DNA of 41,527 nucleotides from Pelatocladus maniniholoensis HA4357-MV3 (GTDB lineage: Bacteria; Cyanobacteriota; Cyanobacteriia; Cyanobacteriales; Nostocaceae): NCBI GenBank assembly GCA_019359115.1, contig JAHHHW010000123.1, forward strand, positions 1 to 41,527. Reading direction: 5' to 3'. The position numbers and the translations under genes were made by a program. This document shows positions 6,422-34,383 of the stretch, in pieces. The notes beneath the pieces are model-generated. The model worked only from the letters and a program-made list of their open reading frames with translations, did no database searches and was not told where the DNA came from. Position 1 is the stretch's first letter. Every line of letters starts with the position of its first letter.

Positions 6422-7711
6422 AGACTAGCCCTTTTAAGGTGTAATGTATTTTTCTTGGTGTCTTAGGCGTCATTTTAAATGGTATGTTTATTTCCGCGAT
6501 CGCTCTACTAGATTAAAAACATATAGGACTCCTATTTGATTTTTGAAAAAACTCCGTACATTTTGACCTTAAGCATGACTATCAGCTTTCCCTATTGCCT
6601 ATTGCCTATTGCCTGTTGCCTGCCTCTACGAGTAATTCAGAAATCAAATCGGATTGCTATACCTGTTTTTAGAAAAACTTATTCTTTAAATAACTTGAAT
6701 TTAATTACTACTGTGATTATGGTTCAACTAACTTCATATTTTTCAAGCGTCAACTAGTTTAGTTGCTATATAACCATATTATGAAAATTCTAAATCACTG
6801 ATGAAAAGGAATTATCTTGTAGTTGTAAGGTAAGCAATGCAGTCATGCGGAATTTTCATAAGTTAAATATAATTGCTAGGAATATAGTAAAAAAGATTAC
6901 TTATCAATTCCAGTTAAATTGCTTTACTAAAAGTAAAATAACCAGTTTGTATACCATTTCCAAATTTACATTATTGATTCTAATAAAACTTACTATATAA
7001 GGTTTTTAGCCTATTTATCTATCATAATTATTTTTAAATTGGTATTACTTGTATACCCAATTTAGACATTAAAAGTTACATTCGTTTTAAGTAAGATCAC
7101 TCTTTTGAGAACATGTATCACTATTCTAATATTTTTTAAGCAGTGAAATTAAGGTTAATTTGTGATGTATGTGTTCTGTTTAGAAAGAAATATTGTTAAT
7201 ATTCATGCTCTAAATTTAAGTATTTACCTACCTATATTCGCTACAAAAATAGGTACTTAGAGGTTGTTTGAAAAATAAACTGATTAGCTGTGATTTTAAG
7301 TACTTCTATATCTCCCCTAGTCGTGCTTCAAAAAAGGGGTAGCAGAATCAAATTCCCTTTTTTTAATGGGGATTTAGGGAGAACTAAAATATTTTGCTAC
7401 TGAACAAAAATACTCTTAAAACATCCTCTTAGTATAACTTGAGTTACTACATCAGTTAATTTTGTCTTGACTAGTATTTATAAAAACTTATTGATATTAG
7501 TAATTTATTTTGGATAACTTCCAGTCTTATTTAAAAAGCTTATTATAAAGACAAGGTTATATATAGAATTGCATGTTTAGCTAATCTTTTATACATTTAT
7601 CTACCAAGTTCTCAAAAAAAATCGGGTTTAAAGTGCTGTTTTTAAGTCCATATTGATGTACTATTTGACAGTTAATAACTACTGCAAAATCAATAGGAGG
7701 AGTGTGGAATT
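6422..7711. other. Long AT-rich non-coding gap
   Basis: About 1.3 kb with no credible gene. It contains a short tandem run of the CCTATTG type at 6591-6620, followed by a segment (about 6618-6661, GAAATCAAATCGGATTGCTATA) that recurs with changes near 33524-33562. An imperfect inverted repeat TCTCCCCTAG...TTAGGGAGA spans about 7312-7382. The last 30 bp contain a strong ribosome site for the aminotransferase. Confidence 0.5.
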
Positions 7712-9130
7712 ATGTTTAATTCAGTTTTGACAAATCATTTAGAAAAATTCATTGCACGCTATATCAAGCGGACAAAAACATCAAAATTATTAAAAAAAAA
7801 TTATCATCAAGTTCTAGCTGATACTCAACAGGCTGGTAAATTTGGAAATTTTCATTTGTCATTCAAAGAAATGTATTATCCCATTGTTGGCAAGCACTCT
7901 CTGGGTTCTAAACTGTGGGATATTGATAATAACGAATATATAGATGTCAGGATGGGGTTAGGAATAAATCTCTTCGGTCATAATCCATCTTTCATTAGAG
8001 AAGTATTAACAAAGCAAATAGAACAAGGCTTCCAACTTGGTTCGCAATCAAAATTAGCTGGTGAGGTGGCTGAGTTAATTTGTGAACTAACTGGAATGGA
8101 GCGAGTAACTTTTATAAATACAGGTACAGAAGCCGTAATGACGGCAATTCGACTAGCTCGCACCGTCACAGGTCGTGACAAAATTGTTATATTTTCCAGT
8201 TCTTATCATGGTCATTTTGATGGAGTGCTAGCAAAGGCACAAATGATAGATGGAAATTTAAATATTGTGCCAATTGCTCCTGGAATTCCCACTAACATTG
8301 TGAAAGATGTTTTGGTTTTGACTTATGGAAATCCTCAATCACTAGAAGTGATCAAAGCTCATAAGCAAGAGTTAGCAGCTGTTCTAGTTGTGCCTGTACA
8401 TACTGCTAGATTCAGCTTAAAATTAAAAAATTTCTTACAAGAATTAAGGCAATTAACCAAAGAATCAGGTATACCGTTAATCTTCGATGAAATGACTACA
8501 GGCTTCCGTATTCATCCAGGTGGCGCCCAGGCGTATTTTGATATTGAAGCTGATATAGCCACCTATGGAAAGATCATCGGTGGTGGTATACCAATCGGAG
8601 TGATTGCTGGTAAGGCTTGTTATATGGATGCGGTTGATGGTGGGATGTGGAATTATGGAGATGATTCCTATCCAAGTGCAAAAACTACATTTGTTGCTGG
8701 CACTTTTTGCAAGCATCCCTTAGCGATGTCTGCTGCACAATCTGTCCTTGAATATCTGAAGAAAGAAGGCCCCAATTTACAACTACAGTTAAATCAACGC
8801 ACATCAGAATTTGTCCAAAAGTTAAACAATTACTTAGAAAAAAATGAAGTACCTATTAGGTTGGATAGTTTTGGTTCAGCGTTCTTTTTTTATTACTTAG
8901 AAAATACTATTTCGACAGTAGACATTACTGTTAGCGAGATCATGGAATTGTTCCGCTATCATTTGATAAACAGAGGAATTCATATTGTAGGTTCGTCTAA
9001 TTATTTATCGACAGCTCATACAGAACAAGATATTAATTATATTATTCGGGCTGTAGAAGATAGCGTGACGGAACTGCGTCAAGAAGGCTTACTTCCTCGT
9101 CTTTCCTGTTCCAATATGGCAGTGATTTGA
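7712..9130 (+). CDS. Class III PLP aminotransferase resembling NRPS/PKS AMT domains
   Basis: A 472-residue fold-type I aminotransferase of the glutamate-1-semialdehyde aminomutase clade. Visible motifs are FINTGTEAVMTAIRLAR (PLP phosphate cup), SSSYHGHFDG, LIFDEMTTGFRIHPGGAQ (the Asp pairing with the pyridine N) and ATYGKIIGGGIPIG (Schiff-base Lys). The N-terminal KEMYYPIVG...LWDIDNNEYIDVRMG and the later GGMWNYGDDSYPSAKTTFVAGTF match the AMT domains inside hybrid NRPS/PKS proteins such as McyE much better than HemL. Here the domain is free-standing, with no synthase nearby. The ribosome site AGGAGG is well placed before ATG 7712. It is followed by an ethanolamine-type permease, so it probably transaminates an imported amine or beta-amino acid; the substrate is unknown. 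Confidence 0.85.
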   Translation: MFNSVLTNHLEKFIARYIKRTKTSKLLKKNYHQVLADTQQAGKFGNFHLSFKEMYYPIVGKHSLGSKLWDIDNNEYIDVRMGLGINLFGHNPSFIREVLTKQIEQGFQLGSQSKLAGEVAELICELTGMERVTFINTGTEAVMTAIRLARTVTGRDKIVIFSSSYHGHFDGVLAKAQMIDGNLNIVPIAPGIPTNIVKDVLVLTYGNPQSLEVIKAHKQELAAVLVVPVHTARFSLKLKNFLQELRQLTKESGIPLIFDEMTTGFRIHPGGAQAYFDIEADIATYGKIIGGGIPIGVIAGKACYMDAVDGGMWNYGDDSYPSAKTTFVAGTFCKHPLAMSAAQSVLEYLKKEGPNLQLQLNQRTSEFVQKLNNYLEKNEVPIRLDSFGSAFFFYYLENTISTVDITVSEIMELFRYHLINRGIHIVGSSNYLSTAHTEQDINYIIRAVEDSVTELRQEGLLPRLSCSNMAVI

Positions 9131-23284: not shown

Positions 23285-25687
23285 ATGGGTTATCGATTTG
23301 ATAGTGCTAATAAAAGTAAAAATTCCAGTTTGGCATATCTCCTACTACCTTCTCAGCTAATGATTGATAATTCTAGAGTTTCAGAACCACGTAAATTAAA
23401 TATTACAACCTCATTGTCAAGCAATAAATCTTTCTTTGGATGGTTTTATAACCTGATTCTCAATCGTAAACATTTAATCGCCTTAATTAGCTGTGAATTA
23501 GTTTCTATTTTAGGTATAGCTATTGGAACAAAATTCTTTATTAATCAAAGTTTAGCAACTCAATTGACTGAACAAACAAAATCTGAACTCGCAGTAAATG
23601 ATGTTGATTATCATGCTAGTTTTAATAAACTTAAATCACAGATAGAGTTACCTCTAGAAAGCAGGGCTATATTAGACGAAGCAGTTGCAGCCAATACAGC
23701 ACAAATAGTTACCAAACATGCTGTTTTGGGAAATAAAACTTACATTATGCCACATCAGGCTTTGACTAACAAAATTATTGGATATGTTGGAAAATCAGAT
23801 AGATATAAAGTAGTTGAGAAAAGACAATCCCTAGCTATTTTAGTGCAGAGAACTCCTGATAAATCTATCAATAACGTATTAACACAAAGTTGGTTATTAC
23901 AAATTGTATTAGTTTTATTAGCTTTCTTGTTAATTGCTATTTGGACATTCATCTTAAGACGTTCAATCATCAAACCAGTTTCTCATTTGCAGCAAGCCAC
24001 CGAAAAATTTGCCGCAGGCGATCGCAATGTCCGTGTTCAAGTTTTCGCAAATGATGAAATTGGTAAACTGGCTGTCAGTTTCAATAAAATGGCAGACTCG
24101 ATAACAAAAGAGTTTCGTCGTCAAGAAAATGATGCAAAACTCATAGAGAAACTCAATCAAATCACTATTCGCCTACGAGAAGTACTCAGCAGTGAAAAAA
24201 TTATTAAAACCGCAGTATCAGATATAAGAGATGCTTTGCAAAGCGATCGCGTACTCTTTTATAGTTTGGATGACCATTGGCAAGGCAAAATTATTGCTAA
24301 ATCAGTTGATTATTCTTGGTTAAGTGACTCAGAAGAAAATCTTTCTAACCCCTATTTTGGAGAAGAGTATTCTGATGAGTTAGCAATAGGTACGGTGAAA
24401 ACAGTCCATGATATTTACGACAATAATTTTAGTCACTCATATCTGCATCAACTAGAAAGCCAAGCAGTTAAAGCATATTTGTTAACACCTGTGTTTATTA
24501 ACAGAAAACTATATGGTTTGTTAGTAATTCATCAGTGTTCTCATGAACGTTATTGGCGAGATATAGAAATTTATTTATTTAAACAAATTGCTGTTCAAAT
24601 TGGTTATGCTCTAGAACAGGCAGAACTTACTCAACAAATAGAACAAGGTCGTCAAACTGCAAAAACATCTTCTTGGGAAGAACAGCAACATCAACAAGCT
24701 TTACAAAATCAAGTTTTAGAATTACTTGATGATGTTGAAGGTGTAGTTCGAGGTGACTTGACGGTACGTGCTGATGTGAATGAAGGCGAAATAGGTACTG
24801 TTGCAGACTTTTTCAACTCCATTGTTGAAAGTCTACGGGATATTATCATCAAAGTAAAAGTGTCAATTGTGCAATTAGACGAGGCGATTGGTAGCAACGA
24901 AACAAAAGTCTGCTATCTCACACAACAAGCACTAGCACAAACTAACGAAATTAGTCGCATTTTGGATGCTGTTGAACAAATGACTATTGCTATGCAAGCA
25001 GTAGCGTCTAGCACCCAGCAAGCTGCACAAGTCGCTAATACCGTCGCTAACACCGCCACGAAAACAGGAAAAGCGATGGATACAACAGTAGAAAATATCT
25101 TAACTTTGCGTGAAATTGTCGGCAAAACTGCCAAGAAAATCAAACATTTGGGACAATCTACACAAGAAATTTCGCGTGTAATCGCATTAATTAACGAGAT
25201 TTCCATGCAATCCAACTTGTTAGCAATCAACGCAGGTATTGAAGCCGAGCGAATGGGTGAAGAAAGTCAAGGTTTTGTTGTTGTGGTCGAAGAAGTTAGC
25301 GAACTCGCAGCGCGATCAGCACAAGCAACCAAAGAAGTAGCAGAAATTGTTGAAAACATCCAACAGGAAACCAACGAAGTAGTGGAGGCGATGCAAGAAG
25401 GAATTACTCAAGTTACACAGGGAACACAAATAGTTGAAGATGTCAAACATGATCTTAGTTTAATCTTAGACATCTCACAGCAAATAGATACTTTAGTGCA
25501 GTCAATTTCTACCGCCACAATCTACGGAGTCCAGACATCACAAACGGTTAGCGAATTAATGAAGCAAGTTGCTACTAATTCACAATCTACTAGTGAATCA
25601 TCTATGCAAGTTTCTAAATCTCTACAAAAAACGGTGAAGATTTCCCAGCAGTTACAGGAAACACTAGTTGGTTTGAAGGTGAATTAA
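23285..25687 (+). CDS. Second methyl-accepting protein with a diverged GAF domain
   Basis: An 800-residue paralogue of the MCP at 16842. TM1 is at about 60-80, followed by a short extracytoplasmic loop of about 110 residues (Cache reduced or lost), TM2 at about 203-225, HAMP, GAF at about 290-450, and a signalling domain. In the GAF the DPCF motif has become NPYF (Tyr at 357) and the canonical cysteine is Ser385, followed by Tyr. The 28-residue spacing typical of DXCF cyanobacteriochromes is kept, so both possible bilin-anchoring cysteines were lost by substitution. The normally near-invariant tip reads AGIEAERMGEESQGFVVVVEEV, with several unusual changes. It may still signal as a subunit of mixed receptor arrays. 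Confidence 0.85.
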   Translation: MGYRFDSANKSKNSSLAYLLLPSQLMIDNSRVSEPRKLNITTSLSSNKSFFGWFYNLILNRKHLIALISCELVSILGIAIGTKFFINQSLATQLTEQTKSELAVNDVDYHASFNKLKSQIELPLESRAILDEAVAANTAQIVTKHAVLGNKTYIMPHQALTNKIIGYVGKSDRYKVVEKRQSLAILVQRTPDKSINNVLTQSWLLQIVLVLLAFLLIAIWTFILRRSIIKPVSHLQQATEKFAAGDRNVRVQVFANDEIGKLAVSFNKMADSITKEFRRQENDAKLIEKLNQITIRLREVLSSEKIIKTAVSDIRDALQSDRVLFYSLDDHWQGKIIAKSVDYSWLSDSEENLSNPYFGEEYSDELAIGTVKTVHDIYDNNFSHSYLHQLESQAVKAYLLTPVFINRKLYGLLVIHQCSHERYWRDIEIYLFKQIAVQIGYALEQAELTQQIEQGRQTAKTSSWEEQQHQQALQNQVLELLDDVEGVVRGDLTVRADVNEGEIGTVADFFNSIVESLRDIIIKVKVSIVQLDEAIGSNETKVCYLTQQALAQTNEISRILDAVEQMTIAMQAVASSTQQAAQVANTVANTATKTGKAMDTTVENILTLREIVGKTAKKIKHLGQSTQEISRVIALINEISMQSNLLAINAGIEAERMGEESQGFVVVVEEVSELAARSAQATKEVAEIVENIQQETNEVVEAMQEGITQVTQGTQIVEDVKHDLSLILDISQQIDTLVQSISTATIYGVQTSQTVSELMKQVATNSQSTSESSMQVSKSLQKTVKISQQLQETLVGLKVN

Positions 25688-25804
25688 GGAGAACAAGGGA
25701 AGGGGGACAAGGAAGAATTTCTCTATTTTCTTCCCCTAATTTATAATTCTCGATCCCTATTCCCTATTTTCAAGAAAATTCTAACGATATATGCTGTTGT
25801 GAAT

Positions 25805-26275
25805 AAAAAAGTCCTTGACAAATCTGGCAATATCTGAAACAGTTGCTATGACATAATTTCAATAGTTTTTTCAATTAGTGTAATATCGTATTTTACACCA
25901 TTTTTTGGTCTACTCTCTGAGGAGACAGAGAACAAAATGTAGTTTATTTTTAAGTGAGTAGGCAACATTTTTTCCTTGACTAAATTCTAGATTTCTTATA
26001 GATATACTTTTAGTAACAGTTAAATATCCTAAAAAAATCAAGTTAAAAACATGTTAAAATAGTGTAATATCAAGTTAATGCTATGGCTATTAGTGATATT
26101 AATAGCCATAGCACGCTAGTTTTTCTGTAGTGAGTTCCCGCATGTTCTGCCAAAAATAGCACTAGATTCACAGTCAATTCTAGTGCTTAAACATTTTGAA
26201 CACTTTGATTCAGGCAAGAGTGAGGAAGTGGCGATCGCATCGCCTCATGTTCTATAGGTGTCCGCCGAGACACCC
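25805..26275 (+). promoter_or_regulatory. Duplicated leader block, copy A (upstream of egtD)
   Basis: A ~471-bp non-coding segment homologous from end to end with 29259-29754. Conserved islands include AAAAAGTCCTTGACAA at the start, GAGAACAAAATGTAGT, a 36-bp identical stretch (25954-25989), AAAATAGTGTAATATCAA, GCCATAGCAC, AAAAATAGCACTAG and, at the end, GCGATCGCATCGCCTCATG with CTATAGGTGTCCG. Copy A also has strong hairpins at 26079-26113 (14-bp stem), at AGCACTAGA/TCTAGTGCT, and at GGTGTC/GACACC. It ends about 300 bp before egtD. Shared promoter and leader control of egtD and the sulfoxide synthase is the natural reading, but no known riboswitch or RNA family was recognised. Confidence 0.7.
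25976..26002 (+). promoter_or_regulatory. Candidate promoter conserved in both leader copies (A)
   Basis: TTGACT (25976-25981) and TATAGA (25997-26002) with a 15-bp spacer. In copy B the equivalents are TTGACT and TATAAT. The -35-like box lies in the 36-bp identical stretch. The spacer is shorter than the optimal 17 bp, which lowers confidence. Confidence 0.4.
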
Positions 26276-26576
26276 GATCAACATATCCATAGCTTAGACT
26301 TGCACTGAGGAAGTTTATGAGTAAAAAATTCAACAGTCATTATTAAAAAAAATTCAAATTTTTTATCCAATAAATAATCCATAGTATCTAGACTTTTTAA
26401 AAGCATTCAGTTTTGTTAACAAAGTCTTATTAATTATGGAGAAAAATTTGATGCCTAAATATAACTTGTATTTATAAATAAAATTTGAATGTTTTTTATT
26501 AGTTACAAGAGTTGATCTATATATTGAAATGTGCAATTATTTTTTAGGTTAAGACCAGAGAATAAACAACATCAGA

Positions 26577-27551
26577 ATGGTTACAACTTCTTTGAAAATC
26601 CTCACTCATCCTTATCAATCTGTAAAAAATGATGGTCAAGATGTTATTCAAGGATTAACTCAAAATCCAAAAAGTTTACCTCCAAAGTATTTTTATGATG
26701 ATCACGGCTCAGAATTGTTTGAACAAATCTGTGAGTTACCAGAATATTATCCAACACGAACAGAGGCGTGGATTTTGAGCCAATATGCTGATGAAATTGC
26801 TGAGATTACAGGTGCTTGTGAATTAGTAGAATTAGGCAGTGGTAGTTCTACTAAAACTCTATTTCTGTTAGATGCATACCAAAAAATTGCTAGTTTGTGT
26901 AGATATGTACCCATTGATGTCAGTGGGGGAATCCTCAAAGCTAGTGTGCTGAAACTACAAGAAAAATATCCTTCTTTCTCGATAGAGGGTTTAGTAGGGA
27001 CTTACGAACAAGCATTAGCAAAACTGGAATCGACCTCGTCGCCATCGCGGATGATTTTTTTCTTGGGAAGTTCTATGGGAAATTTTGCTTCCCAAGATTC
27101 AGAAGATTTATTGCGCCGAATTTCTCAAACTTTAAACCCCGGCGATTATTTTCTACTTGGTATCGATCTACAAAAACCAGAAGATATTTTATCAGCAGCC
27201 TATAACGACAGTCAAGGAGTAACAGCTGCTTTCAATTTGAATATGCTCTCCCATTTAAATTGGCGATTCCAAGGCAATTTTGATCCCAGTTTCTTTACGC
27301 ATCAAGCAATTTATAATCAAGCTGATGCTCAAATTGAAATGTATCTTCATTGTCACAAGAGTCATTGGGTATCCCTAGAAATTTTAGATTTCAAGATTTT
27401 CTTTGAAGCTGGGGAAAAAATTCTCACTGAAATTTCTCGTAAATTCGATTTAGCAATTATGCAAAAAGATCTGGAAAAGCAAGGACTTAAGACACTGAAA
27501 ATTTGGACAGATCCAAAACAGTGGTTTGGATTAATTCTTTGCCAAGCTTAA
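26577..27551 (+). CDS. egtD: L-histidine N-alpha-methyltransferase (ergothioneine pathway)
   Basis: A 324-residue SAM-dependent methyltransferase that converts histidine to hercynine (trimethylhistidine), the first step to ergothioneine. Residues 37-63 hold the hallmark KYFYDDHGSELFEQI with EYYPTRTE. The SAM loop is VELGSGSSTKT at 84-94. FFLGSSMGNF and GDYFLLGIDLQK are further family motifs. The C-terminal lid region includes EMYLHCHKSHWV, and the protein ends at the usual place for EgtD. The ATG at 26577 fits the family start. It is separated from the sulfoxide synthase by an mscS-type gene, but both carry the same leader block. Confidence 0.93.
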   Translation: MVTTSLKILTHPYQSVKNDGQDVIQGLTQNPKSLPPKYFYDDHGSELFEQICELPEYYPTRTEAWILSQYADEIAEITGACELVELGSGSSTKTLFLLDAYQKIASLCRYVPIDVSGGILKASVLKLQEKYPSFSIEGLVGTYEQALAKLESTSSPSRMIFFLGSSMGNFASQDSEDLLRRISQTLNPGDYFLLGIDLQKPEDILSAAYNDSQGVTAAFNLNMLSHLNWRFQGNFDPSFFTHQAIYNQADAQIEMYLHCHKSHWVSLEILDFKIFFEAGEKILTEISRKFDLAIMQKDLEKQGLKTLKIWTDPKQWFGLILCQA

Positions 27552-27861
27552 ATATTGTTTTTTCTTTGTTGAAGGGTAACTAAGTAGCCATCCTAAACAT
27601 CCTAAACTGTATACACCAAGGTGAATAATTCCTAAAAATCTTTTTTCATTTTGGAGGAATAATATCTATTTAAAAAATTCAAATCCACATATTCCGTTAA
27701 ATAAAACCTAATTTAGTTTACAAAAATTATGAGTTATTTTGCGGATTAAAAATGATAAAATTCATCGTGTTTCTTCCCTATCCCTGATCTCCTAATTTCA
27801 AAGAGTTTGGGGATAGAAGAATTATCATCTACCAAATACTCAAATACTTTTTAGCCAATCT
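27552..27861. other. Intergenic region without recognised signal
   Basis: 310 AT-rich bases between egtD and the MscS-type gene. No hairpin with a T-run and no ORF of interest was seen. Confidence 0.4.
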
Positions 27862-28980
27862 ATGGAAACAGTTTGGAACACGCTGAAAAACATCAACTAT
27901 TCTGGCATCCCGATTGCCAAAATCGCTACTGTTCTTGTGATATTGACACTGACACAGCTGTTGAGACGGTTTTTTGTTGGAGTCATTATTAAAACTATTG
28001 AGCGCTTTACTCGCAAAACAAAAAGTACACTTGACGATGAATTGATAGCTGTAATCAGACCTTCTTTAAGTTGGCTGATTCAAATTGCTGGATTTTGGCT
28101 AGTCAAGACAGTTTTCGCAGAGGAATTAGGGCCTCAACTTAGCGAAACAATTGGTAATGTACTCAACTTCATAGTCATTTTTATAGTTGCATACGTTGTT
28201 TATCGAGGCTCTTCTATCATGGGTCAGATACTTGCCAACGTAGTGCTACACACAGAAACTGAGCTTGACGAGTTGCTCAGACCTTTAATGCCAAAGATTT
28301 TCCAATCAGCAGCAATCATCATACTGACAATTAAGGTTAGTGAAGTATTTTTAGGACAATCGGCGGCTGCATTGGTTGGTCTATTAGGTGGTGCTGGTAT
28401 AACTTTAGGTTTGCTATTAAAAGATATTGTCTATGACTGGTTTTGTACATTGATTATCTACTCCGATAATCTCTATCGAGAAGGTGACTGGGTAGGAGTG
28501 GAGGGAATAAATGGTTTTGTGCAGATACTAAATATTGGATTTAGAACCACAACTCTGCATATAACTAAGTGGGGTTCGATCATCAAAATGCCCAATTCAA
28601 AAATGATTACTGGAATTGTTGAAAATTGGTCACAAAATCCTGGTACAGAATTAAAGTGGGGGCTGAATTTAACTCTCAAAATAGATGGTATTTCAGCACA
28701 GCAAACTGCCAGAATTTGTGATGGTATTGAAGAATTAGCAAAAAATATTCGGGGAGTTTCTCCATCAGTTACGGTTAGGTTCAGCAAAATTGAAGAAAAT
28801 GCCCGTGTCATTGAAATTATGTTATTTGTGAATGACGCAAATCTTTATTTTGATGTGGAGAGAAGCTTAAACCTAGCCATATTAGAACTATTAGAGCAAG
28901 AGGGAATAGATTTTCTATCTATCAACCTAGAAGTAGATATGTATAAATATAAACAGAATAAGGAAGCAATCAACAATTAA
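27862..28980 (+). CDS. MscS-family mechanosensitive ion channel
   Basis: A 372-residue inner-membrane channel. There are about five transmembrane helices: about 16-40, 70-87, 96-122 and 148-166, and the pore helix AALVGLLGGAGITLGLLLKD (about 170-190). A beta domain follows (YREGDWVGVEGINGFVQILNIGFRTTTL, then IKMPNSKMITGIVENWSQ), and an alpha/beta C-terminal domain. The RxGD and PN motifs of the MscS middle domain are intact. It lies between egtD and the OvoA-like gene on the same strand. Co-occurrence could reflect osmotic or stress co-regulation, but a direct role in thiohistidine metabolism is not indicated. Confidence 0.9.
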   Translation: METVWNTLKNINYSGIPIAKIATVLVILTLTQLLRRFFVGVIIKTIERFTRKTKSTLDDELIAVIRPSLSWLIQIAGFWLVKTVFAEELGPQLSETIGNVLNFIVIFIVAYVVYRGSSIMGQILANVVLHTETELDELLRPLMPKIFQSAAIIILTIKVSEVFLGQSAAALVGLLGGAGITLGLLLKDIVYDWFCTLIIYSDNLYREGDWVGVEGINGFVQILNIGFRTTTLHITKWGSIIKMPNSKMITGIVENWSQNPGTELKWGLNLTLKIDGISAQQTARICDGIEELAKNIRGVSPSVTVRFSKIEENARVIEIMLFVNDANLYFDVERSLNLAILELLEQEGIDFLSINLEVDMYKYKQNKEAINN

Positions 28981-29101
28981 AGATGAAAGAAAACTTTCAC
29001 AATGATGTTTGATGTTGTTTTTACACACACCATACTACGCGATCGCACTTGATTCTGTAGAGTGTGTTAGCACTAGCGTAACGCACCAATAGTAAACCTT
29101 G

Positions 29102-29131
29102 TGCAGAGACCGTAAATTTACGGTCTCTGCA
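29102..29131. repeat. 30-bp perfect palindrome
   Basis: TGCAGAGACCGTAAATTTACGGTCTCTGCA is perfectly self-complementary about AAATTT, apart from no loop; read as two arms TGCAGAGACCGTAAA and TTTACGGTCTCTGCA. A half copy is at 5344-5366. It belongs to the GAGACG/GAGACC palindrome class also seen at 1330 and 37648. It may terminate mscS transcription. Confidence 0.7.
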
Positions 29132-29258
29132 TGACAAAACAATGCCGAAAAATCTTTAAAAAACCGCATTGGGGTTAGTCCTATCAATATAACCACTGTT
29201 GATTTTCCGCAGATATGCTGGAAGTAGGATTTGGGCGAATGAAGAACACGAGTCAGTT

Positions 29259-29754
29259 AAAAAGTCCTTGACAATTTTAGCTACATCTGAAACATTTGGT
29301 ATGTCTTAATGACAGTAGTTTTTCATATTGATGTAATATCATATTCACACTATTTTTTTGTTTATTTTCTACGTTCCCTGAGAACAAAATGTAGTCAGTT
29401 TTCGAGTGAGTAGGCAACATTTTTTCCTTGACTAAATTCTAATTTTCTTATAATGATACTCTCGTTTACCACTTAATAACCCTAAAAAATAATGCAATTA
29501 ATATACTCAAAATAGTGTAATATCAAATTAATAACATTGCTTGTAGTAATGCTGATTGCCATAGCACACTAGTATTTTTTTAGTGTTCTCCCGTATTTTC
29601 TGCGAAAAATAGCACTAGGTTTACTACCCTTTATACTGCTTAAATATTTGGAATAGTTTGATTCAGTCAAGAGTAAGAAACTGGTGATGCTCCTCTAGGA
29701 TATGCTTTCGGCGATCGCATCGCCTCATGCTCTATAGGTGTCCGAGGAGATACC
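29259..29754 (+). promoter_or_regulatory. Duplicated leader block, copy B (upstream of the OvoA-like gene)
   Basis: A ~496-bp homologue of copy A in the same orientation and at the same distance (about 290 bp) from its downstream gene. The 36-bp identical stretch is at 29406-29441, and a better -10 box (TATAAT) follows at 29449-29454 after TTGACT at 29428-29433. The stem at 26079-26113 of copy A is not preserved here, and GGTGTC/GATACC is weakened. Primary sequence islands rather than hairpins are what selection seems to have kept. Confidence 0.7.
29428..29454 (+). promoter_or_regulatory. Candidate promoter conserved in both leader copies (B)
   Basis: TTGACT, a 15-bp spacer, then TATAAT. It is equivalent to 25976-26002 in copy A. 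If real, it would give a 5' leader of roughly 590 bases for the downstream gene. Confidence 0.45.
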
Positions 29755-30045
29755 AACCTATTAGAAATACTTACAGAACGAATAGTTGATGATTAATAAT
29801 CTACTGATAAAAACTTAACAATCATATAAATCAGGGAAAATAAAATGAAAGATGGCTTTGAGTTAAGAAATGTCAATGGAAAAAATAGGTCACTGAATAT
29901 GTCACTCAGTAAGATTTTTGCATCGTTTTTTTACTTTATTAACCCTTGCATGAGAATCTACCTATAAATCTATTACTCTAGAAACAGAAGCGAATTATCT
30001 GGATTAAATTGTGTTGTCAAAAGTTCATCACAACTATAAAAGACC

Positions 30046-31383
30046 ATGAAAACAATCCAATTAACTGTTCCTCCAAAACTTGATAGTTGCAATAACCAAG
30101 CCATCCTCGATTACTTTGAGAATGCTTGGCAACTTGAAGACATGTTGTTTAGAAGTCTAGTTAGTGAAGACACATTTTATATCAATCCCGACCCTTTAAG
30201 AAATCCTCTGATTTTTTATCTGGGACATTCGGCTGTTTTCTACATCAATAAATTGATTCGTGTTGAATTATTAAAAAAACGTATTAATCCAGATTATGAG
30301 ATATTATTTGAAATTGGAGTTGATCCAGAAAAGCCAGAGGAATTAGATCAAGCGATCGCTCATCTGGAATGGCCGCAAGTTGCACAGACTTGGGAGTATC
30401 GAGAACAAGCATATTCTGTAATCTCCGAAGTAATTAAAAAAACCCCAATTACTCTACCAATTCATCCCAGTCATCCTCTTTGGGCATTAATGATGGGGAT
30501 GGAACACCAGCGTATTCACATTGAAACCTCTTCGATGTTAATTCGCCAACTGCCAATTGAGAGAGTTAAACGTCCCTCCAACTGGAAATATGCTCCTTCT
30601 AATGGTTACACTCCCCAGAATGAAATGATAGAAGTGGCTGGTGGGGTAGTGAAAATAGGTAAAGCCTTTGATGATAGTACCTATGGATGGGATATTGATT
30701 ATGGCGATCGCACTGTTGAAGTCGCACCTTTTTTAGCTAGTAAATATCTGATTACCAACTCAGATTTTCTCTATTTTGTCAAGTCCAGTGGCTACGAAAA
30801 TCAAGATTATTGGGATGAAGAATCCTGGAATTGGAAAACTCAAAATAACATCCAACATCCCAAATTTTGGTCACTAGAAAATGGTAATTATAAATATCGA
30901 GCCATGTTTGACGAGATGGATTTACCTCTAGATTGGCCAGTGGAAGTCAATCACTATGAAGCAATGGCTTACTGTCGTTGGCAAGGTAAAGAGACTCGCT
31001 TAATGAGTGAAGCCGAGTACCATCTAGCAACGTACGGTGATGGTTTAATAAAAGATATAGACAACTACAATCTCAATTTTAAATTTGGCTCACCGAGTCC
31101 CGTAGGCATGTTAGAAACTGCAAAAAGTCACTCTGGATTGTACGATTTACGCGGGAATATTTGGGAATGGTTGAGCGATAATTTAAATCCTCTTTCAGGA
31201 TATAAACCTCATTTTCTGTATGAAGATAATTCTGCCATCTTTTTTGATACCAAACATCACATGTTGTTAGGGGGATGTTGGATAACTAACGGTACAGAAG
31301 CTTTGAAATATTACCGCAATTGGTTCCGTCCTAATTTCTATCAACACGCTGGTTTTAGGATTGTTCGGGATATAAAATCTTAA
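30046..31383 (+). CDS. ovoA: OvoA-lineage iron-dependent sulfoxide synthase, lacking the methyltransferase domain
   Basis: A 445-residue non-haem iron enzyme: an N-terminal DinB-like domain followed by an FGE-sulfatase fold. The iron triad is visible as H61 (FYLGHSAVF) and H154/H158 (MEHQRIHIETS). INPDPLRNPLIFYLGH, NPDYEILFEIGVD and YGWDIDYGDRTVEVAPF mark it as OvoA lineage rather than actinobacterial EgtB. Typical OvoA has about 700 residues with a C-terminal N-methyltransferase; that half is absent. Cyanobacterial OvoA-lineage enzymes of this kind have been reported to make ergothioneine from hercynine and cysteine, and egtD 2.5 kb upstream supports this. So EgtB function is more likely than ovothiol synthesis. 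The C-terminus LGGCWITNGTEALKYYRNWFR is complete, and a decayed duplicate of it lies at 33618. Confidence 0.9.
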   Translation: MKTIQLTVPPKLDSCNNQAILDYFENAWQLEDMLFRSLVSEDTFYINPDPLRNPLIFYLGHSAVFYINKLIRVELLKKRINPDYEILFEIGVDPEKPEELDQAIAHLEWPQVAQTWEYREQAYSVISEVIKKTPITLPIHPSHPLWALMMGMEHQRIHIETSSMLIRQLPIERVKRPSNWKYAPSNGYTPQNEMIEVAGGVVKIGKAFDDSTYGWDIDYGDRTVEVAPFLASKYLITNSDFLYFVKSSGYENQDYWDEESWNWKTQNNIQHPKFWSLENGNYKYRAMFDEMDLPLDWPVEVNHYEAMAYCRWQGKETRLMSEAEYHLATYGDGLIKDIDNYNLNFKFGSPSPVGMLETAKSHSGLYDLRGNIWEWLSDNLNPLSGYKPHFLYEDNSAIFFDTKHHMLLGGCWITNGTEALKYYRNWFRPNFYQHAGFRIVRDIKS

Positions 31384-31485: not shown

Positions 31486-31980
31486 ATGAAACCAAATCCC
31501 ATACCACCAAAACCCGGTCAAGAATCAGTTTGGGACTATCCCCGTCCGGCGATTTTACAAGATACCGACAAACATCTAAAAGTCATTTGTAATGGCATTG
31601 TTTTAGCAGAAACTAACAGAGGAAAAAGAGTCTTAGAAACCAGTCATCCTCCTACATATTACTTTCCCCCAGAAGACATCAAACTAGAATATCTGATTGA
31701 AACACCAAAGAAAAATCTGTGTGAATGGAAAGGTGCATATCAATATTATGATATCAGCATTGGTGGTCAGCAGAGAAAGTATGCTGCTTGGCGATATTTT
31801 AACCCAACTTCTGATTTTCTGCCCATTCAAGAATACTATGCTTTTATCCCTGCTTTAATGGATGCTTGTTATGTAAATGATGAGTTAGTAACACCCCAAT
31901 CCGGTGATTTTTATGGAGGATGGATAACTGCGGATATTGTTGGACCTTTTAAAGGTGGTCAAGGTACATGGGGGTGGTAA
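31486..31980 (+). CDS. DUF427 domain protein
   Basis: A 164-residue soluble protein of the DUF427 family. Characteristic segments are VICNGIVLAETNRGKRVLETSHPPTYYFP-like (residues 28-60), LCEWKGAYQYYDI and AAWRYFNP. It has a short proline-rich N-terminus and a glycine-rich end. The family's biochemical role is unknown to me. It lies 102 bp after the sulfoxide synthase and its stop is only 3 bp before the next ATG, so it is almost certainly co-translated with the PP-loop gene. This placement makes it a candidate accessory factor of thiohistidine metabolism. Confidence 0.85.
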   Translation: MKPNPIPPKPGQESVWDYPRPAILQDTDKHLKVICNGIVLAETNRGKRVLETSHPPTYYFPPEDIKLEYLIETPKKNLCEWKGAYQYYDISIGGQQRKYAAWRYFNPTSDFLPIQEYYAFIPALMDACYVNDELVTPQSGDFYGGWITADIVGPFKGGQGTWGW

Positions 31981-31983
31981 ATT

Positions 31984-33339
31984 ATGAAATTTTCGGTAAT
32001 CAAAATTGATAGTTGGATAATTCATGAACATCATTTAGAAATTATCTACAGTGCAGATAAATTTCAATTCTCAAGTAAGATTTTCTATCATGATGTTTCG
32101 TTTTCTGGGTTGATGAAAAAATATTCTCAACCAATCATACAGCGCGTAGTTGCTCATATTATTTTATTTGAAGGAATGAAATTATGTTCTTTATTCCCTC
32201 AATATTATGATATTTCTGTAATTGCTGAATATCTAGAAATCGAAGTTCTAGATTTGTTTGTGCAAATATATCAGGGAGTATTTGGGCAACATTGGTATGA
32301 AAACAATATCACTAATTATCAACAACCGGAAATTATCTGTTCTCAAAAATTGGGAGTAAGTCAACCTACTTCCATTTTAGGTGATCATCAAACTATTCTC
32401 GCTGGATGTGGTGGTGGTAAAGATAGTATTTTAGCCATGAAAATACTGGAAGAAGCGGGTATTTCTTTTGCTTCTATGCAGTATTCCCATAGCGTTTACG
32501 GAAAAGCTGATTTTCAACATAATTTGATCTCGCAAGTATTAGAATTTGTCAACCCCATTGCTAAACATCAAATATCTATCTATGATGATTTTACTGATTT
32601 TCCATTTTTGAAATTATACTTTCCTGAAAACTCTGGTATCACTGCTCCAGAAACGCCAGTTTCTATCTTTGAATCTCTAATTTTAATATTAGATAAAGGA
32701 TATCGTTATCTATGTCTAGCACATGAAAAAAGCGCAAATACTGGTAATCTATTCTGGGACGAAATAGGAAAAGAAGTTAATCATCAATGGGGGAAAGGTT
32801 TAGTAGCAGAACAAATTTTGGATCAATTTATCCAACAACATTTGTTTAGCAACTTTAAATACTTCAGTATCCTCCAACCCATCTACGATTTTCGCATTTT
32901 TCAAAAATTGAGTAAATACCCTGAACTTATTCCTAAAATCCATTCTTGTAATGTAAAAAAACCCTGGTGTAAAAAATGTTCTAAATGCGCTTATGTTTGG
33001 TTAGGTTTAATGGCATTCTCGCAACAGAATCTTGTCAATGAAGTTTTTGAAAATAATTTATTTGATGATATAGATTTACTTCCGATATTCCGAGAAATGC
33101 TAGGTTTAGGTGAACATACACCATTTGAATGTATTGGAGAAATTGAGGAAAGTAGATTATTGATGAGAAGATGTTTAGAACGGGGTATAACAGGAAAAGC
33201 TTTAGATATGTTTACAGAGGAAATTTTATCGGATACTAGAATTGATTGGCAGAATATTGAGCATAAATATAATTTTATTTATGCTACAGAACATGCTGTT
33301 CCTGATTGGATATATGATCAAATTAATAATAATTTGTAA
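31984..33339 (+). CDS. PP-loop ATPase related to MurL, with a four-cysteine cluster
   Basis: A 451-residue protein. The PP-loop GGGKDS is at 143-148. LAHEKSANTGN, EVNHQWGKG, FSILQPIYDFRIFQKLSKYP and WCKKCSKCAYVWLGL follow the same order as in MurL-type epimerases (UDP-MurNAc-L-Ala-L-Glu epimerase). Cysteines C322, C329, C332 and C335 (CX6CX2CX2C) probably bind zinc or an iron-sulfur cluster. PP-loop enzymes adenylate a carboxylate or activate a substrate for amide or sulfur chemistry. Cyanobacteria do not obviously need MurL, and the gene sits 3 bp after DUF427 behind a thiohistidine enzyme, so a different substrate is plausible. The function is not established. Confidence 0.75.
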   Translation: MKFSVIKIDSWIIHEHHLEIIYSADKFQFSSKIFYHDVSFSGLMKKYSQPIIQRVVAHIILFEGMKLCSLFPQYYDISVIAEYLEIEVLDLFVQIYQGVFGQHWYENNITNYQQPEIICSQKLGVSQPTSILGDHQTILAGCGGGKDSILAMKILEEAGISFASMQYSHSVYGKADFQHNLISQVLEFVNPIAKHQISIYDDFTDFPFLKLYFPENSGITAPETPVSIFESLILILDKGYRYLCLAHEKSANTGNLFWDEIGKEVNHQWGKGLVAEQILDQFIQQHLFSNFKYFSILQPIYDFRIFQKLSKYPELIPKIHSCNVKKPWCKKCSKCAYVWLGLMAFSQQNLVNEVFENNLFDDIDLLPIFREMLGLGEHTPFECIGEIEESRLLMRRCLERGITGKALDMFTEEILSDTRIDWQNIEHKYNFIYATEHAVPDWIYDQINNNL

Positions 33340-33617
33340 AAAAGTAAAACTTTAGGAATTAATCAAGTTAAATAATTTTCAAAAATGTCTAAAGTCTTGA
33401 ATCAACAAATTGATTATTATTACAGAACTTCTATTTGGTTTTTGTTGGTGTAGTCTGCACTCTGCGCTGAAAAAACTCAGTAGACTTCTTATTAAAACTT
33501 TCCTGTTCCCTGTTAAGACCCTTCACGAGTCAGTTCATCAAATCAAATCAGATTGCTATATTACCCAGAAGTTGCACAGGACTTTACGACTTGTGCAGGA
33601 ATGTTTGGGAGTAATTA

Positions 33618-33827
33618 AGTGATGATTTAAATTCTCTCTCAGTATATAAACATCATTTAGTGTATGAAGATAATTCTGCGATCTTTTTTGATACGAAACA
33701 TAATATGATGTTAGGAGGATGTTGGGTAACTAATGGTACAGAAGCTTTAAAGTATTACTGCAATTGGTTCCATCCTAATTTCTATCAACACGCTGGTTTT
33801 AGAACTATTCAAAATATCAGGGATTAA
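33618..33827 (+). pseudogene. Remnant of the 3' end of the OvoA-like gene
   Basis: The 70-codon frame from 33618 to the TAA at 33825-33827 encodes a near-copy of the last 70 residues of the sulfoxide synthase at 30046, including YEDNSAIFFDTKH, LGGCW and FYQHAGFR. DNA identity is high, about 80% by eye. Changes such as YRNWFR to YCNWFH hit conserved residues. There is no upstream part, so this is a fragment of a second copy rather than a gene. Confidence 0.9.
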
Positions 33828-33837
33828 CAGCACAATC

Positions 33838-34383
33838 ATGTTTTACACAAATAATAAGTGGAGAGTACTGATACTTACAGGAATGATATTTGGCATCTCC
33901 TCCATTTATACCTGTAATGTTCAGGCTCAATCTTTGTCTGAGAAAGGCAATATATTAATAGCTCAAAATCTAGGGGGAATAGTACGAAAAATCACTCTAG
34001 AAGAAGTACCAATGACAGCAATGTCGTCTGCAAAAACAGTGACAAATGCTGAATTTAATCAAGCCCGAATTGAACTGAAGTCAGATGGTTCCTTAATATA
34101 CATCATTAGAGGAAAAAACCAACAAGGCTATCAGGTTGAAGCACAAGTTACTCCTAATGGTACTGTTACTCAAGTTGATGAGCAAATAGACTCCAGTGCA
34201 GTTCCTGAAGTTGCTGTCAAAGCTTTCAAACGATGGGCGCCCAATGACCAAACGGTCAGCATTTGGCGGAGTACCCGTCTGGGAGAATTGTACTATCAAT
34301 TTGTCATTCAGGATTTTTGGTTAGAAGTTGCTCCTGATGGTAATAAAGTTATGATTTACCGGAAAAAAGTTAATGTGACTTAG
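33838..34383 (+). CDS. Secreted protein with a PepSY-like fold
   Basis: A 181-residue exported protein. The N-terminal signal sequence has a hydrophobic stretch VLILTGMIFGISSIY and a likely cleavage after VQA. The mature part has alternating strands (ARIELKSDGSLIYIIRGKNQQGYQVEAQVTPNGTVTQVDE) and a helix (VPEVAVKAFKRWAP), reminiscent of PepSY-like repeats. I do not recognise a named family. It starts 10 bp after the pseudogene and precedes a PstS-like gene on the same strand, so it may be part of an envelope or nutrient-uptake group. Confidence 0.7.
   Translation: MFYTNNKWRVLILTGMIFGISSIYTCNVQAQSLSEKGNILIAQNLGGIVRKITLEEVPMTAMSSAKTVTNAEFNQARIELKSDGSLIYIIRGKNQQGYQVEAQVTPNGTVTQVDEQIDSSAVPEVAVKAFKRWAPNDQTVSIWRSTRLGELYYQFVIQDFWLEVAPDGNKVMIYRKKVNVT

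Follow-up and report, generated by a model that had tools for sequence, protein, structure and literature searches.

The stretch of DNA analysed here (the window; 41,527 nucleotides, contig JAHHHW010000123.1 of the cyanobacterium Pelatocladus maniniholoensis HA4357-MV3) carries two similar non-coding blocks on its + strand: block A (25,805-26,275), upstream of a paralog of egtD, which encodes an L-histidine N-alpha-methyltransferase, and block B (29,259-29,754), upstream of ovoA, which encodes an OvoA-type 5-histidylcysteine sulfoxide synthase. A preliminary description of this DNA suggested that the two blocks are a regulatory leader dedicated to these two genes, possibly a structured RNA, and named the duplication of a promoter region as its fallback. 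It is the fallback that our analysis supports, since copies of the block precede unrelated genes: we put at about two in three the probability that the blocks are paralogous copies of a promoter/operator region that spread by segmental duplication, and not a pair specific to ergothioneine.

In the history that we favor, the block would act as DNA, with transcription presumably running rightwards into the adjoining gene, and the segmental duplication would fall at about the time when the Fischerella/Westiellopsis species split, the order of events being our reconstruction. Block A would be a promoter-like region within the long leader of the egtD paralog, of which it makes up the first ~470 bp. 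Block B would have stood before a gene for a SET-domain protein until the middle of that gene was lost, which left ovoA next to it by chance, and a third, shortened copy would have come to lie in a ~1.9-kb segment absent from relatives, where another SET gene follows it. Together the copies would be part of a small promoter-region family marked by three conserved DNA elements, and of its five diverged members four lie beside an AAA_35 gene.

Throughout the text we compare the genome of P. maniniholoensis (G000), including a second of its contigs (C110), with three further genomes of the genus, namely G001, Westiellopsis prolifica IICB1 (G002) and Fischerella sp. PCC 9431 (G003), and with sets of 217 genomes of the family and 388 of the order.

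Block copies and the lost SET gene

Blastn searches of the blocks against their own genome, run in both directions, align A with B on the same strand at 73% identity (E 1.2e-83 and 1.3e-83), which bears out the earlier statement that the two are homologous over their whole length and in the same orientation. The identical core noted before is present as well, at 37 bp (25,953-25,989 and 29,405-29,441) and not 36 bp, and HIP1 octamers at 26,231 and 29,711 agree with the described HIP1-containing ends. The distances given as some 290-300 bp measure 301 bases from the end of A to egtD and 291 bases from the end of B to ovoA; the latter figure, however, is fortuitous, as the relic of another gene lies in between.

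This relic was recognized by comparison with W. prolifica, where an intact 157-codon SET-domain gene (PF00856, 53 bits against a cut-off of 22) stands between mscS and ovoA. Positions 29,809-29,871 of the window match the start of that gene together with its upstream flank at 85.7% identity, and positions 29,895-30,057 match its last codons together with the SET-ovoA spacer at 95.7%, so that the window retains, on the + strand, a SET relic (29,845-29,912) composed of the first codons (29,845-29,871) and the last codons (29,895-29,912) with the middle missing. The former start codon (29,845) lies 90 bases beyond the end of B. In Fischerella sp. PCC 9431 the C-terminal part of the SET gene is left. 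Because the two ends of the SET gene lie between B and ovoA, and because the gene is intact in W. prolifica, we conclude from these alignments that block B, the second copy, is the former leader of a now largely deleted SET gene and not the leader of ovoA, before which it now stands because the SET gene lost its middle. In W. prolifica the spacer before the intact SET gene has no match to the block, i.e., no copy of B. The SET-ovoA spacer keeps its 95.7% identity to W. prolifica although the egtD leader stands at ~78%, perhaps through recombination between strains.

The third copy, found by the same own-genome search on contig C110 (30,002-30,230, minus strand), comprises the first ~230 bp of the block, and the remaining matches in the genome are short or weak. 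Clear copies are therefore A, B and the C110 copy in P. maniniholoensis and one each in W. prolifica and Fischerella sp. PCC 9431 (the five genus copies, A being homologous to the other four), with no clear copy found in G001 and at most three in each of the five genomes searched. These five copies show 75-79% pairwise identity, and their tree is star-like (bootstrap values 42 and 44).

Downstream of the C110 copy comes a further SET-domain gene (PF00856), the product of which shares only 26-27% identity with the SET protein of W. prolifica, and after it a gene that matches DUF1248 below threshold. The block and these two genes form a ~1.9-kb segment directly upstream of mutL, between mutL and a rhodanese-like gene (L017, ~6493-8375; both flanking genes named from sequence, not from a scan), and in all three other genus genomes (G001, G002, G003) a 51-bp gap takes the place of this segment. 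No terminal repeats were found at its ends, and the junctions of this site, the only one seen empty, show no target duplication when read by eye. Similarity between C110 and A resumes at 26,393-26,440, beyond the block (E 1.7e-8; 9e-12 with Fischerella sp. PCC 9431); the duplicated unit was therefore longer than the block, probably a longer leader of the egtD type of which C110 has lost ~370 bp. Homologs of the C110 SET protein occur in 24 of the 217 family genomes, and 11 of their loci (L131-L141), compared with the C110 leader, gave one 34-bp match and none longer. Fischerella sp. PCC 9431 lacks the egtD of the window kind, and its A-type leader continues into mscS.

Conserved DNA elements and diverged relatives

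Identity between orthologous leaders (77-78%) lies close to that of four-fold sites in egtD, mscS and ovoA (67-85%), and four-fold sites in mutL, at 84%, exceed it; identity over the full length hence does not by itself demonstrate function. Conserved columns nevertheless gather in islands, the longest invariant run among the five genus copies reaching 16, where permutation gives 7.8 on average (p 0.0036, relatedness ignored). Three such elements can be followed through a ten-copy alignment that adds to the genus copies five diverged homologs, from the metagenome-assembled genome Nostoc sp. JL34 (G139) and from G120, G104, G158 and G027.

Element 1 reads, in A (25,815-25,843, + strand), TTGACA, a 17-bp spacer ending in TGA, and AACAGT, and in B (29,268-29,296, +) TTGACA-17-AACATT; TTGAC and, exactly 20 bp on, TGAAA are both present in ten of ten copies. 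From the alignment we infer an extended -10 promoter (TTGACA-17-AACANT with TGA before the second hexamer). Such a site would share TTGACA, the 17-bp spacer and the TGN with the sigma-70 extended -10 promoter as generally described, and would differ from it in having AACANT for TATAAT, in the further conserved elements spread over 160-200 bp, and in going uncalled by a generic sigma-70 scan, which reports no + strand site at element 1 of A. A pattern scan for element 1 over the genome collection, from which the own genome was possibly left out, returned three records, those of G002, G003 and G139. Element 2 is ACAAAATGTAG in both A (25,932-25,942, +) and B (29,384-29,394, +), and its AATGTAG is kept in all ten copies. 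Element 3, a second promoter-like site, is in A (25,975-26,002, +) CTTGACT, a 15-bp spacer and TATAGA, and in B is marked by TTGACT (29,428-29,433, +), which the generic scan does call, pairing it with AATGAT at 18 bp. Its CTTGACTAAATT is invariant in the five genus copies; among the diverged ones it reads CTTTACTAAA in G139 and G120 and CTTGACTAAA in G027 and is degenerate in G104 and G158, so that CTTGACTAAA or CTTTACTAAA occurs in eight of ten copies.

Within each clade the elements keep a constant spacing. The distance between element 1 and AATGTAG is 119-121 bp in the five genus copies against 139-142 in the five others, and AATGTAG and element 3 are 39 bp apart (5/5) against 59-61 bp (5/5, two of them placed by alignment alone); both gaps differ by ~20 bp, close to two helix turns, which would fit proteins sitting on a single face of the helix. 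We accordingly regard the elements as putative promoters or protein-binding sites.

How far the diverged homologs can be trusted depends on the searches that found them. Blastn over the 217 family genomes matched three, all within the genus, although, with just two candidates scored in each genome, its negatives carry little weight. A sequence-only profile built from the five genus copies (R1) gave, over the same set, ten genomes with matches at E <=1e-4: three from the genus, three accepted (G139, G120, G027) and four set aside as chance (G131, G136, G149 and G133, E 1e-5 to 7e-5), all inside one kind of long open reading frame (ORF) on the opposite strand. Over the 388 order genomes R1 gave 23 genomes with matches at E <=0.01, and G139, G104 and G158 were accepted besides the own genome. 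That scan marked 26 places besides the three own copies, ten of which were read: L034, L045 and L046 were kept; L036, L037, L057 and L061, inside ORFs, and L035, overlapping two, were taken as chance; and L040 and L044, both mostly intergenic, match weakly and only in part. A second model, R2, built from eight copies with G104 and G158 left out of training, scores L040 and L044 at 19.1 and 17.8 bits and none of the other 16 places, rescored by R2 alone, above 16 bits, while giving G104 37.8 bits (E 2.6e-10) and G158 29.5 bits (E 1e-7) over 90 sources. Among thirteen weak-match regions R2 found one match at E <=1 (11.4 bits, in G001), which was set aside. All three such copies (L034 1776-1881, L125 1760-1894, L126 1421-1488) have, just upstream of the block, a second weak partial match to the part with elements 2 and 3 (7-9.5 bits, E 0.14-0.79, singly non-significant).

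The neighborhood of these homologs recurs. Four of the five diverged homologs in family genomes (those in G139, G120, G104 and G158) have a divergent AAA_35 gene (PF14516) as neighbor; the block is located ~110-200 bp upstream of this gene and faces the other way. On its far side stands an MscS-type channel gene in G139 and G120, and in G104 and G158 a PAS-domain gene cut by the end of the locus, with a GAF domain in G104 and a sub-threshold histidine-kinase ATPase match in G158; these PAS-domain genes may encode sensor kinases. The AAA_35 protein of G120 shares 84% identity with its G139 counterpart and 58% with the G104 and G158 proteins. In G027 an alcohol dehydrogenase-type gene lies to the left of the block and the contig end to the right. 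In order and orientation the three elements of the window blocks agree with those in the intergenic region of the divergent AAA_35/MscS-type pair in G139 and G120, but that region has ~20 bp more in each of the two gaps and different neighbor genes.

Several points weigh against the reading of the blocks as promoter/operator copies. The shift in spacing may amount to just two indel events, and its helical phasing could be a coincidence. The first matches of G104 and G158 had E ~0.003, so that these two homologs rest on R2 and their common neighbors, element 3 being placed in both by alignment alone, and no AAA_35 gene is seen beside the G027 copy. As a -10 hexamer AACAGT is poor, and predicted sigma-70 sites are not enriched, with one around A and four around B against a shuffle mean of 5.1 for each. 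Finally, a candidate proximal promoter at 26,512-26,540 (+; TTGATC-17-AATTAT with TGC), the same in P. maniniholoensis and W. prolifica and altered by a 2-nt deletion in Fischerella sp. PCC 9431, could be the real egtD promoter.

Alternative readings

That the blocks are neutral leftovers of segmental duplication, free of any regulatory role, seems unlikely to us. The closeness of their overall identity to that of four-fold sites would fit such an origin, as would the decay of copies seen in the C110 deletion and in the missing B copy of W. prolifica; the clustering of the conserved columns, and the persistence of the same elements in diverged copies before other genes, speak against it.

A bolder proposal, which we hold to be improbable, is that the block is a DNA control module, so far undescribed, of this family of cyanobacteria, its three elements set at whole-helical-turn distances and putatively bound by the ATPase-like AAA_35 protein, which would regulate its own gene and a group of stress-related ones, namely MscS-type, PAS and SET genes as well as the second egtD of Fischerella. 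By eye the AAA_35 N-terminus looks helix-turn-helix-like, but its winged-helix matches are sub-threshold (14-16 bits in G139 and G120, cut-off 27). The G158 protein has a sub-threshold match to sigma-70 region 4, and the G104 N-terminus matches neither model. No relative of the AAA_35 protein was found in the PDB, PADLOC gave one weak match (E 0.0076), and a text search for AAA_35 in PMC7159879 gave no occurrence. For plasmid AAA_35 genes from 6 of 36 matching records, R2 gave no match at E <=1.

Control of egtD may also be sought outside the block, in a candidate upstream ORF of nine codons (MSKKFNSHY*, 26,317-26,346, +) preceded by GAGGAAG, which reads MSKEFKNHY* in W. prolifica and MSKQFNSHY* in Fischerella sp. 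PCC 9431. Translational or attenuation control by this MSKxFxxHY* ORF and a downstream hairpin strikes us as doubtful. The GAGGAAG and the ATG fall within a 28-nt run invariant in three of three egtD-type leaders (column-permutation p 0.0005 for a run of such length, relatedness ignored), but the ORF is confined to three related genomes, varies at codons 4, 6 and 7, and has one His codon. A scan requiring a Shine-Dalgarno-like motif found it neither in B or C110 nor in the 12 other egtD leaders, and it is kept in Fischerella sp. PCC 9431, where egtD is gone from the locus. A long leader as such is ordinary in Fischerella, since the mean length of untranslated regions is reported to be ~380 nt in two species of the genus (PMC5580265).

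Given several copies before unrelated genes, one of them on a segment absent from relatives, a non-autonomous mobile element inserting upstream of genes, like a miniature inverted-repeat transposable element (MITE), might be suspected. The MITE-type repeats known from filamentous cyanobacteria likewise occur as non-coding copies in different intergenic regions; the blocks differ from them in that no terminal inverted repeats were found at the block ends or at the ends of the C110 segment, in the very low copy number (no more than three clear copies in any of the five genomes) and in a duplicated unit larger than the block, C110 and A remaining similar past its end. Searches of mobile DNA returned no plasmid match to A, two 31-bp phage matches, no exact viral-contig match to the element-1 pattern and, for the G120 copy, only two short Borrelia plasmid matches taken as AT-rich chance. 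We give this origin little credence.

The blocks resemble riboswitches and other structured 5' leaders of Rfam in being long stretches in the 5' region of a metabolic gene; they differ in showing neither covariation nor an Rfam match at gathering score, and in having relatives before unrelated genes. An Rfam scan of 25,600-30,100 at E up to 1 gave three matches, all far below the gathering score and taken as chance. All 100 shuffles fold less well than block A (z -4.0), but B has no clear advantage over its own (z -1.2, 15 of 100 shuffles as good), and a strong hairpin in A (26,079-26,113, +) is, by inspection, not kept in B, W. prolifica or Fischerella sp. PCC 9431. The consensus fold of the five genus copies has 48 pairs with covariation at the shuffle level (242 of 500 shuffles reach that value); it exceeds that of slid versions, as expected for a structure derived from the same sequences, and RNAalifold on ten copies returns no consensus pair. 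The block has no consistent tie to one pathway, with SET, mscS, MscS-type and PAS-domain genes downstream, so that it does not always precede egtD or ovoA, as the preliminary description had asked; it is absent from 12 of 12 other egtD leaders examined in the family, and R2 finds nothing at E <=1 in the 13 upstream regions retrieved, from which these 12 were taken. Although A folds well and both blocks now precede genes of thiol-histidine metabolism, a dedicated cis-acting RNA sensing hercynine, ergothioneine or redox state and controlling egtD and ovoA is thus very improbable, given the weak fold of B, the shuffle-level covariation, the unmatched Rfam families, the lost hairpin, the other egtD leaders, and a SET gene as the original partner of B, and both the proposed sensor and the proposed dedicated leader fall away. 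No paper on an ergothioneine riboswitch was found by title or abstract start in the open-access literature, nor any on the promoter duplication, and as far as that literature and the Rfam scan reach, the block appears to be undescribed.

Genes of the locus and wider meaning

The genes around the blocks, all on the + strand, are the egtD paralog (26,577-27,551; TIGR03438, 410 bits, cut-off 291), an mscS-type channel gene (27,862-28,980; PF00924, 37 bits, cut-off 20) and the N-terminal part only of an OvoA-type synthase (30,046-31,383; 445 aa; TIGR04344, 602 bits, cut-off 400, residues 10-440), which scores 181 bits against the EgtB model, below its cut-off of 360. A perfect 30-bp palindrome between mscS and block B (29,102-29,131) may be the mscS terminator. 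A partial second ovoA (33,567-33,821; residues 360-444, 73% identity) is separated from the first by DUF427 and MurL-like genes (31,486-33,339), and the gene just after it (33,805-34,380) matches the protein that follows ovoA in W. prolifica and Fischerella sp. PCC 9431.

The egtD of the window kind is found, among the four genus genomes, only in P. maniniholoensis and W. prolifica, and a second PF10017 gene, ~60% identical to it, is present in all four. In the family, ovoA occurs in 104 of 217 genomes, and the egtD-ovoA pair is widespread, since an egtD of the window kind lies within ~1.5 kb in 19 of the 30 ovoA loci retrieved (a set that includes the window, G002 and G003). Whether the two products catalyze consecutive steps of one pathway, as stated earlier, is uncertain; the TIGR04344 name implies histidine as the substrate. 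OvoA-type enzymes can take hercynine too.

The analysis removes a tempting false lead, that of an ergothioneine riboswitch, and illustrates how a duplicated promoter, once a neighboring gene is lost, can pass for a regulatory element specific to a pathway. Should the three-element module prove functional, one control circuit would link mechanosensitive channels, sensor proteins and a thiol-histidine gene, with an AAA_35 protein as its testable candidate regulator.

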